DNA of 64,000 nucleotides from Amphibalanus amphitrite. Lineage: Eukaryota; Arthropoda; Thecostraca; Balanomorpha; Balanidae. A model generated the notes under the pieces. The model was not told the origin of the DNA, ran no database searches, and saw nothing but the letters and a program-made list of their open reading frames with translations. How positions within the stretch are numbered: the stretch's first letter is position 1; every line of letters starts with the position of its first letter. The stretch spans positions 930,001 through 994,000 of the forward strand of contig NW_024881539.1 in the NCBI RefSeq assembly GCF_019059575.1. Direction: 5' to 3'. The position numbers were made by a program, and so were the translations under genes. Positions 2,755 through 64,000 of this stretch are shown here, in pieces.

Positions 2755-4736
2755 TGGCCTCGTTTCATAAATCTCTGCCGTAACTTACACCTTTCCGTAA
2801 TTCACACCCTTTCAAACTACGGAGCGCAAATGAAGCGGTTTCACAAAGCCACAACTGGAATTGTTTACACCTCCGTAACTAAGCACATTTGCGTAGTTAC
2901 ATTCAATATACCCTGGTAGTTACCGTAATTTATCAAGCGTCCTACAAATTACAATTTCATATCAACACTTATTTTTTTACAAGAAATTATAAAACAATTA
3001 TGTTGAATTTAAATCGTAAAAATTATTTATGAAAAAAACAAAATCGATTTTGCTGACCATCCTTTATTAACCCGCGCGGGGCTGGGGGGGGGGGTAAATT
3101 TTACCCCCCCTCGCGAATTTTTGCAATATCTCAAAAACGGCGGCGCGCAGCGCCGCCAAACTTTCAATACCTTTTCTTACATCAATTTGACACGTTCCCT
3201 GAAAATTTGAGCGAAATCCGTCGGAAATTTTTTGAGAAATTGACGTTTTAGTGACGTCATGTTCGCGATTTTCGCCTCAAAAACGGCAAAAGTTGAAACG
3301 CCGCTAACATCTTCATTTTTAAAGGAATCAAGACGTAACAAAAAAGGTTATGCGTGATTCTACTTTGTCTATCAAATGGCTATCTCGGTTTTTTGAAAAT
3401 TTTGGATTTTGGCCCAAATTTTTTCTAAAAACTGACTTTTTTGGGAAAATAATTATAAAATCCAAAATTTTGAGTTTATCGAAAAAACCGGAATATATGT
3501 CAGAGAAGTGGTCTATGTGCACCTACATACCAATTTTTAGAAGAATCGGTTCAAAAATGTGGGAGTTATTCAAGATTTTATGACGTCACGACACACAAAA
3601 ATTTTGAAAAATGATTTTTTGGAAGTTCTAGACCTCGCACGGAAACAAAAATAGCACCATTCGATTCGTCGTGAAAAACTGCATCAGATAGACACCTTTT
3701 TAGGCCTTAACAACCAACTACAAAATTTGACCTCACTTGACCTGACCTTGACCTGACCTCGACCTGAAATTCATCCAGAGGTGGTCCATATCACTTATTG
3801 AGTGTGCCTATTGAATTCTATGAGTAAAATGATCCATAAAACATGTGTCGCACATGCCCTTTTCCATATTTTGTTTTTTGGTGACCTGACCTGACCTGAC
3901 CTGACCTTGACCTTGACCACTGAATGATATTGTATGCAAAGAATATTGTCTTGGTAGCCTAAGAACACGTTTTGGGCAATCAGTCTCAGTCGATGACTCC
4001 ATTCTTCGGCAACTACGGTGCAAGGCCGATACTGTAGAAACTTGCAATTTGTACCCTTGACCTGACCTTGACCTTGACCTCAAACTTTAAATTAAGTACA
4101 TATTTTAAGTAGTTCGTGATGAGATCTTTCGATTGGCGTTTGATTTTTCCAAATCGGACCATTAGTTCGGGAGATAACAGGGGGGGTAAAATTTACCCCC
4201 CCCCCAGCCCCGCGCGTTCGGCTGGAGACCCCAGCCCCGCGCGGGTTAAATCAATATACTGAAAACAGCAGAAAGCCAGCTAAGCAGAAGTGCCTTACTA
4301 CGAAAGTGGCGCGGCGCGGCGAATAAACAAAATTCCGATAGCTGCCACAAAAAGCGACTGGTACAGAGGATTTGCAGTTTCTTTTTCTCATTTTGGCTGT
4401 TCTCTCTTCCTCATCGGGCTCAACATTATAAAATATATTAAAAATTAGCTTCGAATCTTCACATTAATTCAAATTCACGCAACATTTTTGTGCGCAGTTT
4501 ACACCACTGGTATCAAGAACTTGTTAAAATAGTTGGTGTTAATTACGTCGTTTTATGAAACCCAAATGGCATCAATTGGTCCGGATTCGAGCATTTGCCG
4601 TAAATGAAGCTCCGTAATTTCGATGGCGTGAATTACTCCGGTCTCCGGCTTTATGAAACCGAATTGGCATCAAATACGCCAAATCTGGCATAATTGACGG
4701 AACGCCGTAAGTAATTCCTTTTATGAAACGAGGCCA
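2755..4736. mobile_element. Inverted-repeat element (TGGCCTCGTTTCATAAA ends) hosting T1
   Basis: The left end TGGCCTCGTTTCATAAA at 2755-2771 is matched by its reverse complement ending at 4736. The subterminal parts on both sides repeat CCGTAA/TTACGG words spaced through 2780-2930 and 4540-4720. No clear target duplication was found. The centre is occupied by T1. No transposase remains, so the superfamily is not assigned. Confidence 0.55.
3067..4249. mobile_element. T1: TTAA-bounded G-hairpin element
   Basis: TTAA stands at both ends (3067-3070, 4246-4249). The inverted termini start CCCGCGCGGGGCTGGGG and run into a hairpin of G-run, TAAATTTTA and C-run. In the right end the terminal segment is partly duplicated. 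The interior has many TGACCT/AGGTCA words, densest near 3726-3770, 3882-3918 and 4058-4080. No coding capacity. TTAA boundaries and a CCC start suggest a piggyBac-like non-autonomous element; this is inference from the ends alone. Confidence 0.72.
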
Positions 4737-4749
4737 ATGAGACCAAAGT

Positions 4750-6737
4750 TCTGATCTGTCATAGATGGGCCACGTTTCGATTGCGTTTTTGAGCCTTAGG
4801 CATTCCACGAGCTATCAAAGATATATAGATATACAAATCAGAAACATGTTAAACATCTCGTTCTCTTTCGTGTCCTGTCCCCAGAGTCTCCCTCCACTCT
4901 ACAATCACGCCTTTCCTTCCACCTTTTCAATGCCACCCTTATACGCCCGATTATGAACGGCTCCACCGCGGCCCGTTGTTCGGTGGCCGGTGTTGTCTCG
5001 GAATCAGCCAGCTGTTACATCGCGTCACAGTAATTGTTAGCGCACACCGTTTTCACTGGGAAATAATCGCCGCCTTCCTGTCTCTCGTGTGCGTTATCAC
5101 GGTGAAACATCTGACGAGCGGACGGCGCTCAGGGTCGTGACCGTGATGTGACCCCTGCGTCGGCTGACCTCTGGTGGATTCAGCTGACCTCTTATGACCT
5201 CATGGGACGGGACGAGGCATCTGTTAACACAAGAGAACGAGTGATGAGTGAAGCTTCATGAAGGGCTTGACGTGACGGGAGAAACGGGGGATGGTGAGGT
5301 ATGATCGAAGAAAAAATGATGCGGATAGGACATGACCAAAGAAAATGCAGTGTTTTGAAAGTGCAGAATAACTCGGAAGATTGGAGTGAAAAGGGGCTGG
5401 GTGAGTGAAAATGTTTGTGAGATTGGACAAGACGCGGCAGACACTGGTATGGAATGAAACAAGGCATTTCAGAACATAGAAAGGTATGGACAGGATAAAG
5501 AAGCGCAAAATAAATCCGACCATTAGCCAGCTGGAAAAGAGTCCGACGATGTGCCGGTTCGATGCTCAATTTAAATCTCGTAGGTGGGGCAAGAGGGGAT
5601 AATACAAGAAGGGGGAGGCAAGATAGGACTAAGACTGGATAGGGATGAAGGATAGGGACTTCACGCGAAGACAGGACAAGAGACTGGTACAGAGATGGAG
5701 GGACAGAAGCAGACGCAGATGCGGACTCAGACTCAGACCCAGGAGAAAGGGGCGGTGTTGACAGAGGTCCATCTAGTAAAGCAGGTAAACTGTGTGCCGA
5801 AAGATGCACCGTAACCATGAGGCGGCGAACGTCAGGAGAGAATCGACATGAACAGGTGTTCGAGACGAATCAAATCCTACCAAACACCTTAGCGGCGGCT
5901 AATCCATCTCACCTCCATCCTCCTCTAGACACACGTTTTCACTCATGCGAAAAACAGCGGCGGCCCTGGCTGCGAGCATCCGTCATGGCACGGCGGCTAA
6001 AAAGTGGCGTGATCTTGCCCTGATCTCCGAACAGCTGGCTGGAGAGGGGAGGCGACATATGCCAGGTGAACTCGGACAAGATAAGATGTTATCGACTGAC
6101 TACTCCCTCCGCTGAGCCGCTGCCAATCTCCGCTATTACCCGCTGGTTCCCCCGCTGTCCTGCTCTCTCAGATCGGGGAAGATTAGCGGCCAATATTGAG
6201 AGTGATGCGCCTAGTTCGGAACTCTACAGCAACTAGTTAGGGCGTCCGCCGTCCACACGCGAATAACGCGTTCAGAGCTGCAGAAAATGCGCATGGATTT
6301 TGTGAAATAGTGTGGAAACGGTAATCACTTTATAGATGTAAATATTCATAGCTGGCACGCATTATGATTTATTTATGTAGGCGTAGATTTTCATCAATGG
6401 AGAACGTGCTTGCGTGCTCTGGCAGCGGCTTATTTTGGACAGCCATGAGCCAGTCTGGAAACACGCCATGACGTCCAAAAGCTTGCAGAAACAGACTGAG
6501 GGGCGTCGTCACTCTTCCATGATCAAACATTTCTGAATCCTGATGGACAACAATTGTCCACACTCCACACACGAACATTTCCTCAGCACCAAGGATCGTG
6601 TGTTCAGCTATGCTGATCTTAATGAACATTTTCAAGTAGGAAAACATCTCGTTGTCGCAACAGAATCCCGGGAGGCCCTCAATGCACTCCGTATTGTCTG
6701 ATGCCTGTATGACCGTCTTTTGGTGTCTGTTCGACAG
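4750..6737. other. Non-coding sequence upstream of the LIM1 exon
   Basis: Expected to contain intron and perhaps the unidentified first Islet exon. A start at 5817 (ATGAGGCGG) gives a short frame with no Islet N-terminal likeness and was not adopted. The segment 5700-6240 is moderately GC-rich. No gene supported. Confidence 0.35.
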
Positions 6738-55002
<48,265 letters not shown>

Positions 55003-57485
55003 GACTGAACGACTCACACCTCACTCGCCTCTGTGATATCCGCGTACGCCGCGACGGCCGGCGCCACACCGGCCCGGCCGCCGCGGCCCCGAGAGAGAGG
55101 ACGCTTCTTTTGGGCACCTGCTCTAGGTGGAAGCCAGTGTTCTATCTCGTGTTGCCTCATGTGGTCATTTGGTAAGTCCTGTCCGCCTGTCGAGCCGCGG
55201 AGTGCGGATTATTTCACCGCCTTCGTGTGGTTCGTAGAAGGGCAGCTTTCTGTGCTGCGGCTCCTGAAGATCCCGTTTGAGGAAGTGGCAGCCTTTGGTT
55301 CGGTGTTAGCGTTTCACCAGTACAGTACAACGGAGCTGCTCGGTCTGGTGATATTGCCGAGTAGACCGCTCGAACCTGGTGCCGAGGCACGGGAGGACAA
55401 TGCGGCGGGACCTGTAGGGTGTAGCTGAACGTCTGATTGTCTGGCTGAACTTCATCTTCCCTCGAGTACCTTCAGCCCCAACCAATCATCAGCCCTTGGA
55501 CCTGTGTTTCCCTTTCGCCGCCTTAATCACCCTAATTTTGAAACCAGCTTCGGAGGCGAAAAGGTGACAGTGATTCTTGCTTTGTACCTAAGTTTATTGT
55601 TGGAAGATGTGTCCATTTGTAGTTGTAGGTACTGGGCAAGAAAGGTTCGCCTTGCAGCTGTTTTCTCGATGGCATTAGAGCTAAGATAATCCGGCTTTTT
55701 GTGGCTAACTATCGAGCATTGTATAGTTTCCTCATTCTTTACGTCCATGGCGCATGGCGCATGTGGAAATCGTATGATATTCTTGAATGTGTTATAATTC
55801 CGCCATCACTTCTTTGCTTCAGCCGGCGTATCTGATTGTTTCGCGCCAGCAAACTAGACTCACCCATATGCGTGTGCGTGTGTGTGCGTGCGATTGCCGG
55901 TAAGCCACCCGCGTCTGTGCCAGTGAGTGTAGCCATGTATCGGAATTCGGACCGTGTGACCTCTATCGTGCCGTTACGTTTGAGTGGACCTGTGGCCCAA
56001 GGGGGACGGCCCCAGATTTGCCGGGATAGGGCACTCCTGTGTGTGTAAGAGGCTCGGTGGGGCGCTCCGGCTCAGTGGCAGCCAACATTGGCGGATCCAA
56101 AAAGGTGACAGTTAACCCTGCAGGGCGTACTACGTCCACATATTTTTTTCTGAAACCTAAAAGCTGATTTTGAATCGTTGTATTCACCGGTATGCATTTT
56201 TGAGCAAACCCTTTCAAAAAAAAAAAAAATTAAAAAAATTTCGTTCCGTGGGGGTCATGGTGTGTCGTTTCGGGAACTAGCGACCCGCGGCCGGGCGCCG
56301 CGGAGAGGTGCCCGCCATAGGGTTTTGGGGCTATTTTTTCACGTTTCGGTCTGAATCGTGAAAAGTACTGGTCGTAGCAAATATGTTCCCTGGTTTCTGA
56401 ATTTTCAGCCCACGTGGAATGCGATAGCACAAGAGTCATTTTCGTACAAACAAAACTGTGCCCGCGTTTTTTGGTCAAAGTAAAAATGTTCAGCAGCTTT
56501 TAACACGTGGGCCGCCGCAAAACAGGGTACACCGGAGGACTTACGATTCAATATCTCCTAAGCCATCACAGATAGCAAATATGTTCCCTGGATCTATGTA
56601 GATAATACTTTAGAGAACACTTTAGGCCAAAAATTGTTTCTCGACAACTTACACCCAGCCCGCGTTTTTGGCTTAAATGCAATGCAACACGGCAGCCGAC
56701 CTTGAGGGCTCAGTTAGCGAGTTCATTTTTTAGCGAGCACTTCGAGCATTTCAGCGTTCGATGAAATGACATATTTTTTCAACGCAGTCGTTTCTTCATT
56801 TGCATCTAAACGCGACCTATATGATAATGTGATTGTATCGTCACACTAGAAGGTGTAATTCATGGTAATTTATAGGGCTAATTCTCGGCGCACAGCAGCA
56901 GACGGACACCGACTGACCCACCATCTAAAGGCAGTTTGGCGAAGCAGTATCGTGAATCACAGCCGCGAGATGTCCCTAGCGTAGAACACCGTCTGTTTGC
57001 CCAGTTTAAATACGTGATGTTTGCCCTCTGTCAACCCCTCAGTCATGGGGTTGGGGTCGCGGATGAATGGGCGACCGCCCGCCGCGCGGGGAGGGGGCTG
57101 TTTCCCTGACCCGGACCGCCACGGCATAGGGACGGTCCCGCACTCGCGTGCCTCACGTCGCCGCCTCACACCGGTCAATTACGCTGGTTTTGAGGAACCG
57201 CCCATTGTGGTGGTGGGTGATCCAACGCAGACCATGCCAGAACCCCACTGAGGGGGTATCACCCGTGTCAGCTGGCTCAGACCCATGATATCCCCATACC
57301 GAAAGCGACGTTCCAAAGAGCAATATGCCTTTAGTGGGTATTATTAATGTTTAATTCGAGAATGTATGCATGGATGTAAGCAAATACCTACATGATGTGT
57401 TGAAGTACCTACTCCAACTGTACAACTCTGGCCTCTCAGCTCGAGGAATAAACTTTTTTTACTTTAAAGACAGATTTTTAGTGAC
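55003..57485 (+). other. Islet 3' UTR and downstream flank, boundary unknown
   Basis: Sequence after the stop codon. The transcript end could not be placed: no AATAAA is convincing near the stop, and the one at 57446-57451 is 2.4 kb away. TTAACCCTGCAGGG at 56112 resembles the start of a T-type element with no partner end. AGCAAATATGTTCCCTGG is duplicated at 56376 and 56575, indicating further repeat-derived sequence. Confidence 0.4.
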
Positions 57486-59059
57486 TTTACACTCGCACTT
57501 GCATATAGCGGGGTCGAACGGACCCCCTCCCGGTTTTTCGCGAATAATTCGCGCAAAAAGCGGCTGATCGCGACGAAACTTTCAGTACCATCGAGTTAAT
57601 AAATTTTACACTTACTCTTAAAATTTAATGACCCTGACCCCAATGACCTTTGACCTGTGGTCTGATTCTCGAGACCATGTTTGACCGGAATCGCGAATTG
57701 GCGTATGTCGGCTGAGGCTCACATTATCCGCGCAATTTCCAATCTTTTTTTTTGGTGTGGGTTTCAAGGTCCCGTGAAGGTCAGGTCAAAGCCATTGACC
57801 TTAATGACCTTGATTCACTATTTCGAGTTTTACATGTTTCTATGGTAGTTTCTGGGGCTGATTTCGAATTCCCATTTGGAAATTTATGAAATAGTTTTGG
57901 TGCCCTCGTATGCTACGAAGCTGTCAATAGTGGTCAACACCTGCTATGGATGGCCGGCAGGTCACCTAATGGTTGACCTGACCTGACCTGACTCGACCTG
58001 GCATAAATACATTAACACGCGCAGTGGAAGGGTTGCGAGTACTAAGCCCAGTGGAAGGGGGGCGGATGTCGCCCCCCCCCCTAAGATCTCAGCTCCCACT
58101 GGAGCTAGAAAAACGAAATTTGGAGGGTAGGTGGGGGCCATGGGGAACTCTGTTGTGTGTGAATTTCATGACCCTAGGTCAGTATCTTCAAGGTCAAATG
58201 AGGTCAAATGTGGTCAAATCTGCCATATTAGCGACTTTTTTGCGTTTACACGCCAATAACTCAAAAAGTTACCGGCCGATTTTTTAAAATCTTTCACTAT
58301 ACGAAAGAGCAAACATTTATGAGTATGTATGGTGAATTTCTAGATAATCCAACAATAAATATGGCAGTTAGAAGCCTGCTAAGGGTAAGATGTCGCCGGC
58401 TGAAGCGGCATCGGCCGACGCGGGAAACGCGGCAATCACAATTTTGTGTTTACACACTCATAACTCAAGTTGTTACCGGCCGATTTTCAAAATTCTTTAA
58501 CCATATAATTGCTTGTACATTTCTCAGTCTTCTCACCGAACTTGACGCGAATCTAATATCATGAGCGGTAAGGAGCTCGATGTAAAGACGCAACCGTCCC
58601 GCCCCGGCACAGTCTACAATTCAGGCGGCGCATAGGCGTAGGAACGTTTTCGAAAGTGGGGGGGGGGGGGGGGGGGGCCAAGGTCCCAGAGGTCCAAAAC
58701 CTAACCTACCCCCAAAATCCGATTTCTCCTCGGATTTCGGCCACTTCGTTTTCGCAAACATGATCAGAGATAAAAAAAAAATCGAGACAAAAACAAAAAC
58801 AAAATTGGTTAAAATTTCAGGGAGGCTCCCGTCCATAAACTCAAACTGATGGACGCGTTCCCCTGTCCTCCGCAGCCGTTGGCACCCATGCAAATTCCAG
58901 AGGCATTTAGCAACTTTTTCATTACGAGCAAGCGTGAGACGTGCAAAGCTAGTCTTTTCAATACATATACCTAAAATCAGCATGAACAGCCCAGCTAGGC
59001 TCAGCCAAACCTATAACGTTTTTAAGAGGTTTTATATCAGCGACCAGACCACTGCAACT

Positions 59060-61130
59060 TGGCTGATTGACTATCAGAGGCCGGTGTGGGACTTTTAGAG
59101 GTCGGTCTGGGCCATCAGAGGCCAGTTTAACCCTCGCCGGACCGGACCTATAGGTTTTCGCCCCCCGCCCCCCCCCCCCGGCCGAGGGGGCGGGGGGGGG
59201 GCGGGTACGACCCCTCTCGCCGTTGCGCCCCAGGTGGAGCTAGCGCGTCGCGGAAAAACGAGCGTGTGCGCCGTTACAAGACGCAGAGATCGATACCCGA
59301 TTTTAATGTTCTAGGTCAACCGGTGACCTCTGAGGTCAGGTCAAGTGCCTCAAGGCACGGTTCCGTTTTTGGTGAATAACTTCGCAAAAAAAACGGCCGC
59401 AGAGCCGCGATTTTGCCAGCATCGTGTTCGCCTCTCTCAGGCGCGTCGAATGATGTACTTTTTGTTTGGGTGAGGTAAACTGAGGGTGTTGACCACGGGT
59501 CACGGTCAGGTCAGCGCCCCCAGGTCACGAAATTGGTCGAAGGAGGTCATGTCGCATATCATTCGATTCGGCAGGTCTTCCTGAGTCCATTGATGGCTTC
59601 CCCGACTCGCTAGCTCAATTTGATCGGTAGTTATTGACGACAAACTTATATGACCCTTATAACTTCATAAATGACGTCGCGCAAGGTCAACATTGCAAAA
59701 GTGACGCATCGAACCTTGCAAGGAGTGCATGAAGATTCAGTGTGCTTGAGATAGTTGAAGATCGTTTACGGCGTCAGAAAGTTTTCAGTTTATCCCCATT
59801 GACTTATACCTAATGGTGAGGTCACGAAAATGACCTTAGGAAAAATCCGAAATGCACAAGTTGTGAGACTTCTAATGGATACTAGGTCCTCCAAGGTTCA
59901 TTTCCCTGTGAAATCTCCTCTGGCAGTGAGGGCGTTGCGAAGTTGCGACATCTGAAGACCGTGCAGAGGTTCACTTATGACCTCATGGGTCAGTGACCTG
60001 ATCTGACCCGAAAATGCGGTTGGTGTCAAAAGATCCGGCTTGATTCAAAGGTCAGGTATGCAAAGCTTCAGCTCTCTATCACCGGCGTGTTCGGAGCTAT
60101 CGTGAAAAAAAAAACTGGAGGGGCGGCACCCGCCCCCCCCCCCCCATCGGTCGGTGAGGGTTGAGGCCCTCAGAGACCAGTACAGGGCCTGCAAAGGGCA
60201 GGATGAGACATTTAGATGCCGACTTGGGCCATCGGAGGCTAATGTGGGCCCTTACAGGCCAGCATGGGCCCTCAGAGGTCAGTGTGGGACCCTAAAATGC
60301 CGGCATGGGCCGGTGTTGGACCCCAGAGGCCAGCAGAAGGCCCTCAAAAACCAAGATGGGCCTCAGAGGCCAGCATCGGGTCTTCAGAATCCAGTGCAAG
60401 GACCTCAGAGGCTAATGCGGGTCCTTACAGGCCAGCATGGGCCCTTAGAGGTCAGTGTGGGGCCGTAACAGACCGGCATGGGCGGGACCTGGAACATAGA
60501 GACCAGCGGAAGGCCCTCATAGGCCAAGGTGGGCCCTCAGAGGCAGATGCGGACCCTTAGAGACCGGCATAGGATCTTCAGAATCCAGTGCGGGGCCCTT
60601 AGAGGTCAATGTGGGACCCTAAAATACCAGCATGGGCCGGTGTTGGACCCCAGAGACCAGCAGAAGACCCTCAAAAACAAAGATGGGCCTCAGAGGCCGG
60701 CATCAGGTCTTCAGAATCCCGTACAATGCCCTCATAGGCTAATGACGGGTCCTCCAGGCCAGCATGGGCCCTTAGAGGTCAGTGTGGGGCCCTAAAAGAC
60801 CGGCATGGGCCGGCGTTGGACCTCTAAGGCCAAGATGGGCCCTCAGAGGCCGATGCGGACCTTAGAGGCCGGCATCGGGTCTTCAGAAATCAGAATTCAG
60901 TGCAGGACCCTCAGAGGCACCTAAAGGTTAGTCTTGGGACCCCAGAGACAGAAATGAGGCCACCAGAGGCCGGTGTGAGGCCCTCAGACGCCGACTGGGC
61001 CCTTGAGGCCGGTTTAGGGGCCCTCAAATGAGGTCAATGTGGGTTCTCAGCGGTCAATGTCGGCGCTTGACCGCCACTGAAGTGCCCTCCAAGATCAGTG
61101 TAGGACCCTCAAAGACTGGCTTGGGAGCTG
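59060..61130. repeat. GGGCCCTCAGAGGCCAGCAT minisatellite with about 323-bp higher-order period
   Basis: Units of about 20 bp, variants of GGGCCCTCAGAGGCCAGCAT, lie at 59070-59126 and 60165-61130, interrupted by T7. A longer pattern (ACCCTAAAAT, TTGGACCCCAGAG, CCTCAAAAAC, GTCTTCAGAAT) recurs from 60294 and 60617. Confidence 0.85.
59127..60164. mobile_element. T7: TTAA G-hairpin element, innermost level
   Basis: TTAACCCTCGCCGGACCG starts at 59127; the right end reads CGGTCGGTGAGGGTTGA, so the second TTAA has become TTGA (60161-60164). It shares the CGTTTTTGGTGAATAAC block, a G/C hairpin at each end and AGGTCA repeats. It splits the minisatellite in the hAT-like element. Confidence 0.7.
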
Positions 61131-62452
61131 TTAATAGCTAGCGTGGGATTCTTGAGCCTCGTGACAATCGGATAAGGGCCAGAGCCCCATACGCCCATGG
61201 GGGCCCATTGGTTGTTTGGGGGGGGGCAAATGATATGATGGCCCCCTGATTAGCCTTTGGAGGGGGGAAGGGCATGGCCCCGATCCCCCCTCTGCGACCG
61301 CCACTGCACTGAAAGTGGAAGGGAAGGGGTAGATACAGACATTGCTGGCCCCCAGCCTGTTTGAGCCGAGGCGGGGGCATGGTCACCCTGGCCCCCAGCT
61401 AGTACGCCTTTGACGAACTATGCCGACCCCAAGCAGATCCGGTCAAGCGTTGGTCGTTTGTATACGCATTCTCCTGCACCGTGCTAGTATTGTCTTATAC
61501 CTTTTCAGTGCTCGCTGTCCCGTGCCTCGTATTCAACAAAATGCTGTCACCAGGACCCACAGTCTTGTCTCTGATATGGTTTCCTTCATTGAGTGAAGGA
61601 AATTGCGGTCAATAACGCTGTAGAAACAAAAGGGAATCTTCATTAAAGGGCAAGCTGAATTGTTGTCAAGTTACCGGGTGGTAGCACTGGTACCTAGGTA
61701 CAGACAGACACTTAAGTCAGCAAAAAGTGGGGGGGGGGGCATTTAACATTGCTGGCCCCCCCCACCTCCGAAAGTGGGGGGGCCATGGCCCCCCGGCCCC
61801 CCCTGTTCCTACGCCTATGAGGCGGCGCGTAACGGCTAGCGCCGGCCGCCGCGCCGCCGCGCCGCCGCGGCGGCAGGATGTTTGAATTTACACCGCTATT
61901 ACTAGAAAAGTTGTGAACGGATTTTCTTACTTCTTGCAGGAGAAGATCCGCAATTCAATTCTGGACAGGTAGCCGAACTTTCACATTGATATTATGCTTG
62001 CGGCGCGAGTTATTGGCGAAAAAAAAAAAACAGGAGGGGTGGGCGAAATCCGCCCCCCCCCCCTTCCATTAAAGGTATGTGATCAAAGCTAACATGAAGT
62101 ACGTGTTCAGCACCCCACAAAATCCCTTTTTCAACCTCACTTTACGAACTTCCAGCAAGTCCCGATTTTCCCGATTTGTGGGTCATTGACCTGACCTGGA
62201 AGGTCAACCAGTGACATAAATAAGACCATAAAATTGGGTATCATCGGCTTACTTTCGTTGCGGGCAACGCGCTCGTTTTTTTTCTGCGAAGCTCTAGCTC
62301 CATCAGAGGCTAAACGGCAAGCAGAGTCCAACGGACCCCCCCCCCCCCCCCCCACATATACGTTAGACGCTGGCAAACACGAATACGGGCGAGGGTTAAA
62401 ACGAAGGAGAAATATACGAGCGAACGGACCGCGCAAGCGAAGCGAAATATTT

Positions 62453-63722
62453 TTAACCCTCGCCGGCACAGGCCATTTTGCGTCCATCGACGGCACAAGG
62501 GGGGGGGGGTACGACCCCCCTCGCGTTTGCCCCTGATCGAGCTACAGCTTCGCGGAAAAACGAGCGTGTTGCCCGTCACGAGAGGAAGCCGGTGATATCC
62601 AATTTTAAGGTCCTAGGTCATCGGGAGACCTTCCAGGTCAGGTCAATGACCCGAAAATCGGGAAAATCGGGACCTGTTAGAAAGTCGTAAAGTGTGGCTG
62701 CTATGGGGTTTTCCGGGGTGCTGATTACGAACAGGTATCGTGTTAGTTTTGATCAGAGATTTTGTTTCTAAGCATTTAAACCAGGTCGGGTCAGGTCAGG
62801 TCAGGTCAGGTCAACCGGTAGGGGTCGTGACGGGTATTCGTAATACGGGTCAACCGCCTCTGACAGCTTCGTAACATGTTACGAAGGCAACAAAACTACT
62901 TCGTAAATGTACAAATGGTTGCTAAATTCGAAATCAGCTCCAAAAACTAGCCTAGAAACATGTAAAACTCCAAAAAGTGAACCGAGGTCACCAAAGGTCA
63001 ATGACCTGACCTGACCTTCAGGTGACCTTGACAACCACCCTAATGCATGGGAGGAACATCAAATCACATGTTGGAATATAACGAGGCTTGAAATGATCTC
63101 ACGCATGTCAAAGTGTTTTTATTTTAGGCAAAATAAATATCTAAAACAGTAAAACAAGCTTTCGGCATTACGCCATCATCAAGTTTGAATAAATTAACAT
63201 GTTTTTGATTTTCAAAAGCTAGAGCACAATCATATTGTTCTCTAGCTCTAGCAGATTGTGCTCTAGCTTTTGAAAATCAAAAACATGTTAATTTATTCAA
63301 ACTTGATGATGGCGTAATGCCGAAAGCTTGTTTTACTGTTTTAGATATTTATTTTGCCTAAAATAAAAACACTTTGACATGCGTGAGATCATTTCAAGCC
63401 TCGTTATATTAATAATAATCATGTCATCCATCCTCGTCCATATAAAAACACATGTTGGAACGTTTGAAACCACGAAAAGCGCGGCTAAAGCGAGCCGACA
63501 TACGACGAATCGCGATTCCGGTCAAGCATGGTCTCGGAAAAGAGGTCACAGGTCAAAGGTCATTTGAGTCAGGGTCATGAAATTTTCAGGGTAGGTGTAA
63601 AATTAATCAATACGAGGGTACCGAAAGTTTCGTCGCGATCGGCCGCTTTTTACGCGAGTTATTCGCGACAAACCTTAGGGGGGGGTGCATCAACCCCCAA
63701 CCCCTGTGCCGGCGAGGGTTAA
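62453..63722. mobile_element. T8: TTAA G-hairpin element with hairpin insertion
   Basis: TTAA at 62453-62456 and 63719-63722 with matching ends TTAACCCTCGCCGGCACAGG. It is the reverse-orientation relative of T2 over nearly its full length. AGGTCAGGTCAGGTCAGGTC lies near 62785-62815. It is interrupted by the insertion at 63077-63448, and T2 shows the uninterrupted arrangement at that point. Confidence 0.85.
63077..63448. mobile_element. Hairpin insertion with one-sided tail in T8, Penelope-like candidate
   Basis: Arms 63075-63231 and 63254-63410 (157 bp) pair with no mismatch seen; the loop is 22 nt. A 38-bp tail (63411-63448) ends TATAAAAA. CACATGTTGGAA flanks it at 63065-63076 and 63449-63460, and T2 shows the corresponding single site, so this is an insertion. 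The right arm has TTGATGA (63303-63309), a GGC-GTAAT-GCC stem and GAAA (63322-63325), resembling a hammerhead core with its first C changed. Confidence 0.6.
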
Positions 63723-64000
63723 CCCTCGCCCGTATTTATGTTTTTCCAGCCGCAAACGTATAAGGGGGGAACGGACCCCCCCCTTGCCGTTTCGCCCCTG
63801 ATCGAGCTAGAGCTTCGCGAAAAAAAAAACGAGCGTGTTGCCCGTGACGAGAGGAAGCCGACGATACCCAATTTTAAGGTCCTAGGTCATCGGTTGACCT
63901 TCCAGGTCAGATCAATGACCCAAAAGTCGGAAAAATCGGGACCTGTTAGAAAGTCGTAAAGCGTGGCTGCTATGGCATTTTTCGGGGTGCTGATCACGAA
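63719..64000. mobile_element. T9: TTAA G-hairpin element, cut by window end
   Basis: It starts TTAACCCTCGCCCGTATT, sharing the TTAA with T8, then a G/C hairpin and the CCCCTGATCGAGCTAGAGC block also seen in T5 (reverse) and T8. It continues to the last base of the window. Confidence 0.75.

Follow-up and report, generated by a model that had tools for sequence, protein, structure and literature searches.

The piggyBac transposon of Trichoplusia ni (T. ni) is described as having CCC...GGG ends and 19-bp subterminal repeats lying 3 bp and 31 bp inside its inverted terminal repeats (PMC2533014). According to the text of PMC7351741, a dimer of cysteine-rich domains (CRDs) binds the palindromic internal repeat at bp 17-33, a second, inner dimer has been proposed at the right end, and the native transposase carries out both excision and integration only on LE35/RE63, RE63/RE63 being excised; the unlikeness of the two ends is termed there an enigmatic feature. 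For piggyBat, an asymmetric tetramer has been presented (PMC13405395). Here we describe a family of TTAA-bounded elements in a 64-kb stretch of the Amphibalanus amphitrite genome (contig NW_024881539.1, positions 930,001 to 994,000; hereafter the window, in whose numbering all coordinates are given), which has 50% G+C and is rich in microsatellites and tandem arrays. Judged from their ends alone, these elements are very probably non-autonomous, non-coding members of the piggyBac superfamily with one short-spaced and one long-spaced end, similar to LE35/RE63.

Five elements of 923-1270 bp have both ends within the window, namely T1 (3067-4249, plus strand, 1183 bp), T4 (32329-33340, plus strand, 1012 bp), T5 (51289-52211, minus strand, 923 bp), T8 (59127-60164, minus strand, 1038 bp) and T9 (62453-63722, minus strand, 1270 bp), and five others are one-ended or truncated (T2, T3, T3b, X and X2). 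Alignment of the ends separates two kinds, a split that was missed in the initial annotation of this DNA. Single ends consist of the tip, an address of ~10 bp lying inward of the tip at bp 8-17, a G/C palindrome built of a G-run, a core and a C-run, and a TTTTTCGCGAA-like block, in that order; double ends consist of the tip, the address, a spacer, the address repeated, the G/C palindrome and a different block. All five complete elements combine a single with a double end, the end types of T8 being assigned by spacing and alignment, as a clear inner repeat is lacking. The palindrome is placed asymmetrically, with the G-run starting 13-15 bp from the TTAA in five of six single ends (13 in T1, T4 and T5, 14 in T2, 15 in T8) versus 40-42 bp in all but one of the eight double ends (40 in T1, T4 and T5, 41 in X2 and T3b, 42 in T9 and X). 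The G-run of the T9 single end is less clear, starting at 14 or 20, and the T8 double end is exceptional, with the G-run at 55/61. The best dyads of the T1, T2, T4 and T5 single ends are centred at 25.5-29.5 and that of the T8 single end at 32.5, whereas in the double ends the centres lie at 54.5 (T1), 61 (T4), 55.5 (T5 and T9) and 51 (X2); the script chose other dyads in the T9 single end and in X, and a C/G dyad lies at 55 in the T8 double end.

The address is repeated at an offset of exactly 27 bp in five of the eight double ends (T1, T4, T5, T9 and T3b), and the inner repeat is absent from all six single ends examined. T1, with its single end on the left and its double end on the right, carries the terminal inverted repeat (TIR) CCCGCGCGGGGCTG in identical form at both ends between its TTAA copies. 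Its single-end palindrome (3084-3110, plus strand) has the core TAAATTTTA and a G-run from 13 bp off the TTAA, while its double end (4180-4249, minus strand) comprises the TIR, a spacer, the TIR repeated at +27 (15/15 bp) and a palindrome with the G-run at 40. T4 has the same orientation, and its double end (33265-33340, minus strand) repeats ACCGACGGGGG at +27, again with the G-run at 40. T5 is oppositely oriented; its left, double end (51289-51357, plus strand) repeats TTGCTGGGG at +27 beside the palindrome GGGGGCGTTAAACGCCCCC, with the G-run at 40, and GGGGGCGTTAAACGCCCCC recurs in the single end (52173-52211, minus strand), with the G-run at 13. T9 likewise has its double end, with the repeat at +27, on the left and its single end on the right, and the isolated double end T3b (58012-58081, plus strand), which has the tip CAC and for which no other end was found, repeats CAGTGGAAGGG at +27 beside a palindrome at 58057-58081. 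These five double ends have different addresses, with 8/10 bases in common between T1 and T5. When both sides of the 15 G5+/C5+ dyads were searched, a repeated 11-mer was found beside five, four of them at offset 27 (T1, T4, T3b and T9) and one at 47, compared with 5 occurrences at offset 27 and 200 at any offset among 4000 random places; the T5 repeat at 27 is a 9-mer and falls below the length needed for this test. With the same kind of script, AAAGATAATCAT is seen to recur at offset 27 in T. ni piggyBac, solely in the right end, and the palindromes are centred at 24.5 and 52.5 bp; the end sequences used differ from the print in PMC4625184 by one base inside the right palindrome. In the literature text searched, with figures, supplements and Repbase outside its scope, we found no description of a 27-bp rule outside T. 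ni, which does not prove that none exists.

The boundaries were found de novo by a scan that took each of the 16 palindromic 4-mers in turn as the boundary word and required 14-bp inverted repeats inside them with at most 2 mismatches. The scan gave four TTAA pairs, three of which have CCC tips and correspond to T1, T4 and T9, with perfect 14-bp TIRs; T5 and T8 also have both ends, with imperfect TIRs. The fourth pair (14707-14945) lies within a long, unrelated foldback (14690-14962) that has 127-bp arms with 98% complementarity and a 19-nt loop and is without family tips. The count of TTAA pairs is in itself no evidence, since AATT and AGCT yield as many (5 and 4 pairs, respectively). The tip is CCC at 13 of the 15 ends examined, as the initial annotation had stated for most termini, and CAC at the remaining two. 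The fourth base of the tip is T, G or A, and the CC[C/T]T motif of PMC2872659 is thus only partly matched. TTAA is intact at 13/15 ends, the exceptions being T8 right (TCAA) and T3 (TTTA). Two TTAACCC sites, at 56112 and 22042, were excluded from the family as they are without a hairpin; the former has a TTAACCCTGCAGGGCG tip and no partner end was seen for it, and it is possibly a remnant of another TTAA family. Where the initial annotation had listed nine insertions, ten are counted here. In the strict sense, miniature inverted-repeat transposable elements (MITEs) are below 500 bp, homogeneous and of high copy number (PMC2872659), and the five complete elements exceed that size.

The window contains ten G-run/core/C-run hairpins, eight at element ends and two (61729 and 61776) at no recognised end, whereas placing the same runs at random 2000 times gave a mean of 0.10 and a maximum of 2. 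Together with the TTAA pairs found de novo, this count bears out the earlier proposal of a TTAA-bounded family with subterminal G-run/C-run hairpins. A hairpin occurs in the next 81 bases at 11/20 TTAAC[A/C]C sites versus 5/452 other TTAA sites. The cores had been described as often palindromic, and this was confirmed; 13 cores, trimmed to a non-G start and a non-C end, form 36 of 51 possible dyad pairs, compared with a mean of 16.6 and a maximum of 28 in 5000 shuffles that take no account of this trimming and treat the cores of one element as independent. G-run length varies from 5 to 18 among the ends. The TTTTTCGCGAATA-type block, which was said to follow the hairpin, is indeed found at single ends, closely in T2, T3, T4 and T9 and more loosely in T1, T5 and T8, but was not seen at the double ends aligned in the window. 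A second GC-rich hairpin, of the GGCGGCGCGCAGCGCCGCC type, is found ~65 bp inward in three single ends, those of T1 (3139-3157), T4 (32400-32418) and T5 (52124-52142). Six of 14 ends were folded as single-stranded DNA, with z of -2.4 to -4.9 and 0-2 of 200 shuffles equally stable. The two hairpins outside recognised ends occupy 61729-61794, and AAAGTGGGGGG is repeated at offset 47 beside one of them (61776).

Insertion at TTAA can be followed at T4, which lies inside a short tandem repeat. When the flanks of the element are joined and compared without gaps with the units at 32268 and 33348, 42/54 and 43/54 positions agree, and the maximum over window 1-30000 is 26/54. Between 0 and 12 bases of the right-hand copy were kept and the resulting junctions were compared with neighbouring tandem-repeat units; keeping 4 bases, i.e. 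one TTAA, fits best (0.796), followed by 0 bases (0.68). These paralogous repeats show a single-TTAA empty site for T4, the result at T8 being weaker. T8 is inserted at the left part of a tandem array of ~20-bp GGCCCTCAGAGGCC-type units (60204-60893); its right TTAA has decayed, the G/C runs at its ends are expanded and it has no 27-bp repeat.

The elements have no long open frame; among the five complete ones the maximum stop-free length is 70-94 amino acids (aa). Their movement would depend on a transposase of piggyBac type provided by another part of the genome. The piggyBac-like mobilisation suggested in the initial annotation is supported, beyond the TTAA, by the CCC tips, the T4 empty site and, most of all, the asymmetric ends with the 27-bp offset. 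The hairpin plan, on the other hand, had been taken to be without a known counterpart, and that view is not supported, as piggyBac has palindromic internal repeats of 19 bp that correspond in place and asymmetry. T. ni piggyBac has the same design and the same 27-bp offset, and the plan is therefore most likely a G/C-rich version of the piggyBac palindromic internal repeat, the site of the CRD dimer. We propose a model in which the transposase core would read the CCC tip and the ~10-bp address, while paired cysteine-rich domains would bind the palindrome formed by the G-run, the symmetric core and the C-run. A second, non-catalytic dimer may sit at the inner copy of the address, which in double ends lies 27 bp from the outer one and beside the palindrome, and the combination of a single and a double end would form the preferred synapse. 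The same 27-bp single/double layout across differing addresses provides natural evidence that spacing is constrained while sequence is free, which accords with the two-dimer model.

Several results weigh against this explanation. Three of the eight double ends (X, X2 and T8) are without the 27-bp repeat; the best offset is 25 in X (7/10) and 26 in X2 (5/10), and T8 matches at only 5/10 at 27, with a best value of 6/10 at 36. The two addresses of T8 agree at only 3/10 bases, and T8-left and X are family tips without a G-run/C-run hairpin in the 81-base test. The T8 empty site barely separates 4, 3 and 2 bases kept (0.685, 0.679 and 0.673), and T1, T5 and T9 are without a usable empty site within the window. 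No transposase was found among 10 Pfam-scanned open reading frames (ORFs) of the window's 32 ORFs of at least 150 aa, and G/C runs are much more abundant in the palindromes than in those of T. ni. In addition, the hyperactive T. ni enzyme also integrates symmetric RE63/RE63 (PMC7351741), so asymmetry is not absolute.

Other explanations of the ends were weighed against membership in piggyBac. Kolobok elements also give TTAA duplications and are widespread in animals (PMC6004289, PMC9587614), and an origin from Kolobok or another TTAA-targeting superfamily, with the likeness to piggyBac being convergent, would account for the boundaries. The same sources give Kolobok termini as 5'-RR, whereas CCC is present at 13/15 and CAC at 2/15 ends here, and none of the 15 ends shows the Kolobok form; as the palindromes and the 27-bp asymmetry also fit piggyBac, we regard this origin as very improbable. 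That the G/C blocks reflect low-complexity slippage or assembly noise near unrelated TTAA sites is scarcely credible. The variable G-run length, the two of ten hairpins off element ends and the abundance of simple repeats in the window would be in keeping with it, but the identical TIRs at paired TTAA, the 36/51 core pairs versus a shuffled maximum of 28 and the hairpin frequencies of 11/20 versus 5/452 are not, and chance or low complexity was rejected by the run-placement, random-place, core-shuffle and TTAA-site controls.

A less improbable, though still unlikely, alternative is that the G/C palindromes act as single-stranded hairpins, cruciforms or G-quadruplexes, serving as signals in replication, excision or transcription, and not as a duplex site for the transposase. 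The stability of the six folded ends, which few shuffles equal, and the second GC-rich hairpin at the T1, T4 and T5 single ends are consistent with such a role, and a 2025 preprint connects the binding of PGBD5 with dyadic structures at piggyBac-like ends (PMC12324416). Any palindrome folds well, however, and stability therefore does not discriminate, whereas the location of these palindromes at 13 or 40 bp, adjacent to the repeated address, agrees with the protein-binding layout already known. A duplex site bound by transposase remains our preferred explanation of the palindromes.

The addresses in the set include GGGGCTGGGG, ACCGACGGGG, GTTGCTGGGG, CGGCACAGGG and CCGTATT, and in one subgroup, the only one in which their turnover was seen, a varying address lies between a conserved tip and a ~91% conserved interior. 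The single ends of T2 and T9 agree at 166/180 of bases 60-240 and 7/7 of the tip but at only 5/10 of the address (Fisher p 0.001). Similarly, the double ends of T9 and X2 agree at 164/180 in the interior, 7/7 in the tip and 3/10 in the address (p 1.5e-5), with the stretch 17-60 also diverged (25/43), and T9 and X agree at 151/180, 7/7 and 4/10 (p 0.003); these comparisons have members in common and are not independent. In contrast, X and X2, with a common address, agree at 8/10 in the address and 146/180 in the interior. Within one element the addresses of the two ends agree at 10/10 in T1, T4 and T5 and 9/10 in T9. Perhaps, then, the ends are exchangeable keys under a fixed geometry, the 10-bp address being swapped wholesale, in a concerted manner and at as many as three sites, while the tip, the palindrome plan, the 27-bp offset and the ~91% interior stay, but we hold this to be doubtful. 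Equally tentatively, these sites would be the address of the single end and the two copies, outer and inner, of the double end. Between T1 and T5, divergence of the address (8/10) does not exceed that of the interior (135/191 and 127/176), which lowers the probability of exchangeable keys. Address turnover may represent switching between transposases.

The interior of the elements is marked by arrays of AGGTCA, the nuclear-receptor half-site. On either strand, 106 copies occur in 8095 bp of provisional element intervals, where the limits of T3/T3b and X are partly homology-based, versus 49 in the other 55905 bp, some of the latter within the 60204-60893 array; shuffled elements gave a mean of 3.7 and a maximum of 9 (300 rounds). 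All 19 tandem AGGTCAGGTCA forms lie inside elements (19/19; slightly different intervals, 8050 bp), and one such array, ~170-205 bp from the TTAA, was aligned in 7/7 double ends compared, with one mismatch in X2. The 5-bp period overlaps the half-sites, so the transposase or another host factor is equally possible as a partner. None of the papers listed by a literature search on AGGTCA and piggyBac contains AGGTCA.

The remaining members of the family have a single recognised end. T2 (20706-21469, plus strand) has a single end with a palindrome at 20724-20751 and has lost its right end, its homology to T9 being traced to ~21469. T3 (57486-58011, plus strand) was recognised by alignment to T2 as a decayed, T2-like element whose single end reads TTTA in place of TTAA and CAC in place of CCC; its right end was not found. 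X (62336-62399, minus strand) is a right, double end with a long G-run without a C-run and a weak repeat at +25. X2 (63719-64000, plus strand) is a left, double end with a weak repeat at +26 and is cut by the window end. T9 and X2 have one TTAA in common, which implies that one used the other's flanking TTAA as its target. The double ends of X and X2, which have similar addresses, face each other ~53 bp apart when T9 is left out (62399-63722). A foldback is nested in T9 (63075-63410; 157-bp arms, 100% complementary, 22-nt loop), and ACATGTTGGAA on both of its sides looks like a target duplication of ~11-12 bp. A hammerhead ribozyme was suspected in this foldback, but none was among the 41 matches of a lax Rfam search, all of which were below gathering scores and are expected of any long hairpin. 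At gathering scores, Rfam gave 0 matches in the window.

Elsewhere in the window, Pfam identified a LIM-domain ORF (8761-9273) and a minus-strand ORF with DUF1759 and aspartyl protease domains (35418-38177). The latter is flanked by identical 300-bp direct repeats, 4035 bp apart, in an element (34215-38549) that is presumably a BEL/Pao retrotransposon and probably young. Searches for relatives of the family ends were made in microbial sequences, which have little bearing on animals. TTCGCGAATAACTCG had 15 matches in viral contigs, with a G6+/C6+ hairpin at 0/15 loci; GGCCGATCGCGACGAAACTTTC had 0 matches in bacterial/archaeal genome contigs and viral contigs; and the TTAACCC-N-CGC-gap-GGGGGG pattern had 5 matches in viral contigs, with a G/C hairpin or partner end at 0/5.

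The layout of the ends offers a rule by which such elements can be recognised from sequence and assigned to their transposases, the signature being a 10-bp word with a second copy at +27, ahead of a palindrome, at one end and a lone copy at the other. If the reading of the ends as exchangeable keys held genome-wide, T. ni-type piggyBac synapsis would be constrained in general by the 27-bp single/double rule, in a manner comparable to a 12/23 rule; address switching would be how helper-dependent elements change transposase, and the AGGTCAGGTCA arrays would constitute another conserved cis module. Both the half-site arrays and the address turnover in one subgroup deserve genome-wide study.

Asymmetry as such is already known beyond T. 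ni, since CsuPLE1.1 of Chilo suppressalis has asymmetrically placed 25-bp subterminal inverted repeats (PMC4273485). Human MER75, MER85 and Looper have inner inverted repeats at their ends (PMC12324416). Pokey and mPok of Daphnia belong to the piggyBac superfamily and have non-autonomous derivatives; all of these are likened to the window elements by description, not by sequence. The CMITEs of Acropora (PMC2872659) have TTAA boundaries, CCC tips in nearly all cases, no coding capacity and an interior better conserved between families than the TIRs, as here, and their internal consensus starts with AGGGGTTCCCC, a small G/C palindrome. They are only ~100 bp long, versus 0.9-1.3 kb for the window elements, and the text consulted describes no single/double end pair; one CMITE family apparently derives from a piggyBac-like element, whereas no such source is known for the window elements. 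The piggyBat transposon of Myotis lucifugus resembles them in having a core-bound motif followed by palindromes, asymmetric ends and a tetramer model with an inner non-catalytic dimer (PMC11707139, PMC13405395), but differs in the 44-bp motif repeat at its left end (GCGGGA at bp 11, 55 and 99), to which, in the text of PMC11707139, no right-end palindrome corresponds. Unlike T. ni piggyBac, the window elements have no transposase gene, tips that are mostly CCCGCGC or CCCTCGC, G-run/core/C-run palindromes, several addresses and AGGTCA arrays in the interior. Nevertheless, they have in common with T. ni piggyBac (IFP2) and its LE35/RE63 ends the TTAA, the CCC tips, a palindromic internal repeat at both ends and, at one end, an inner TIR segment duplicated at 27 bp.

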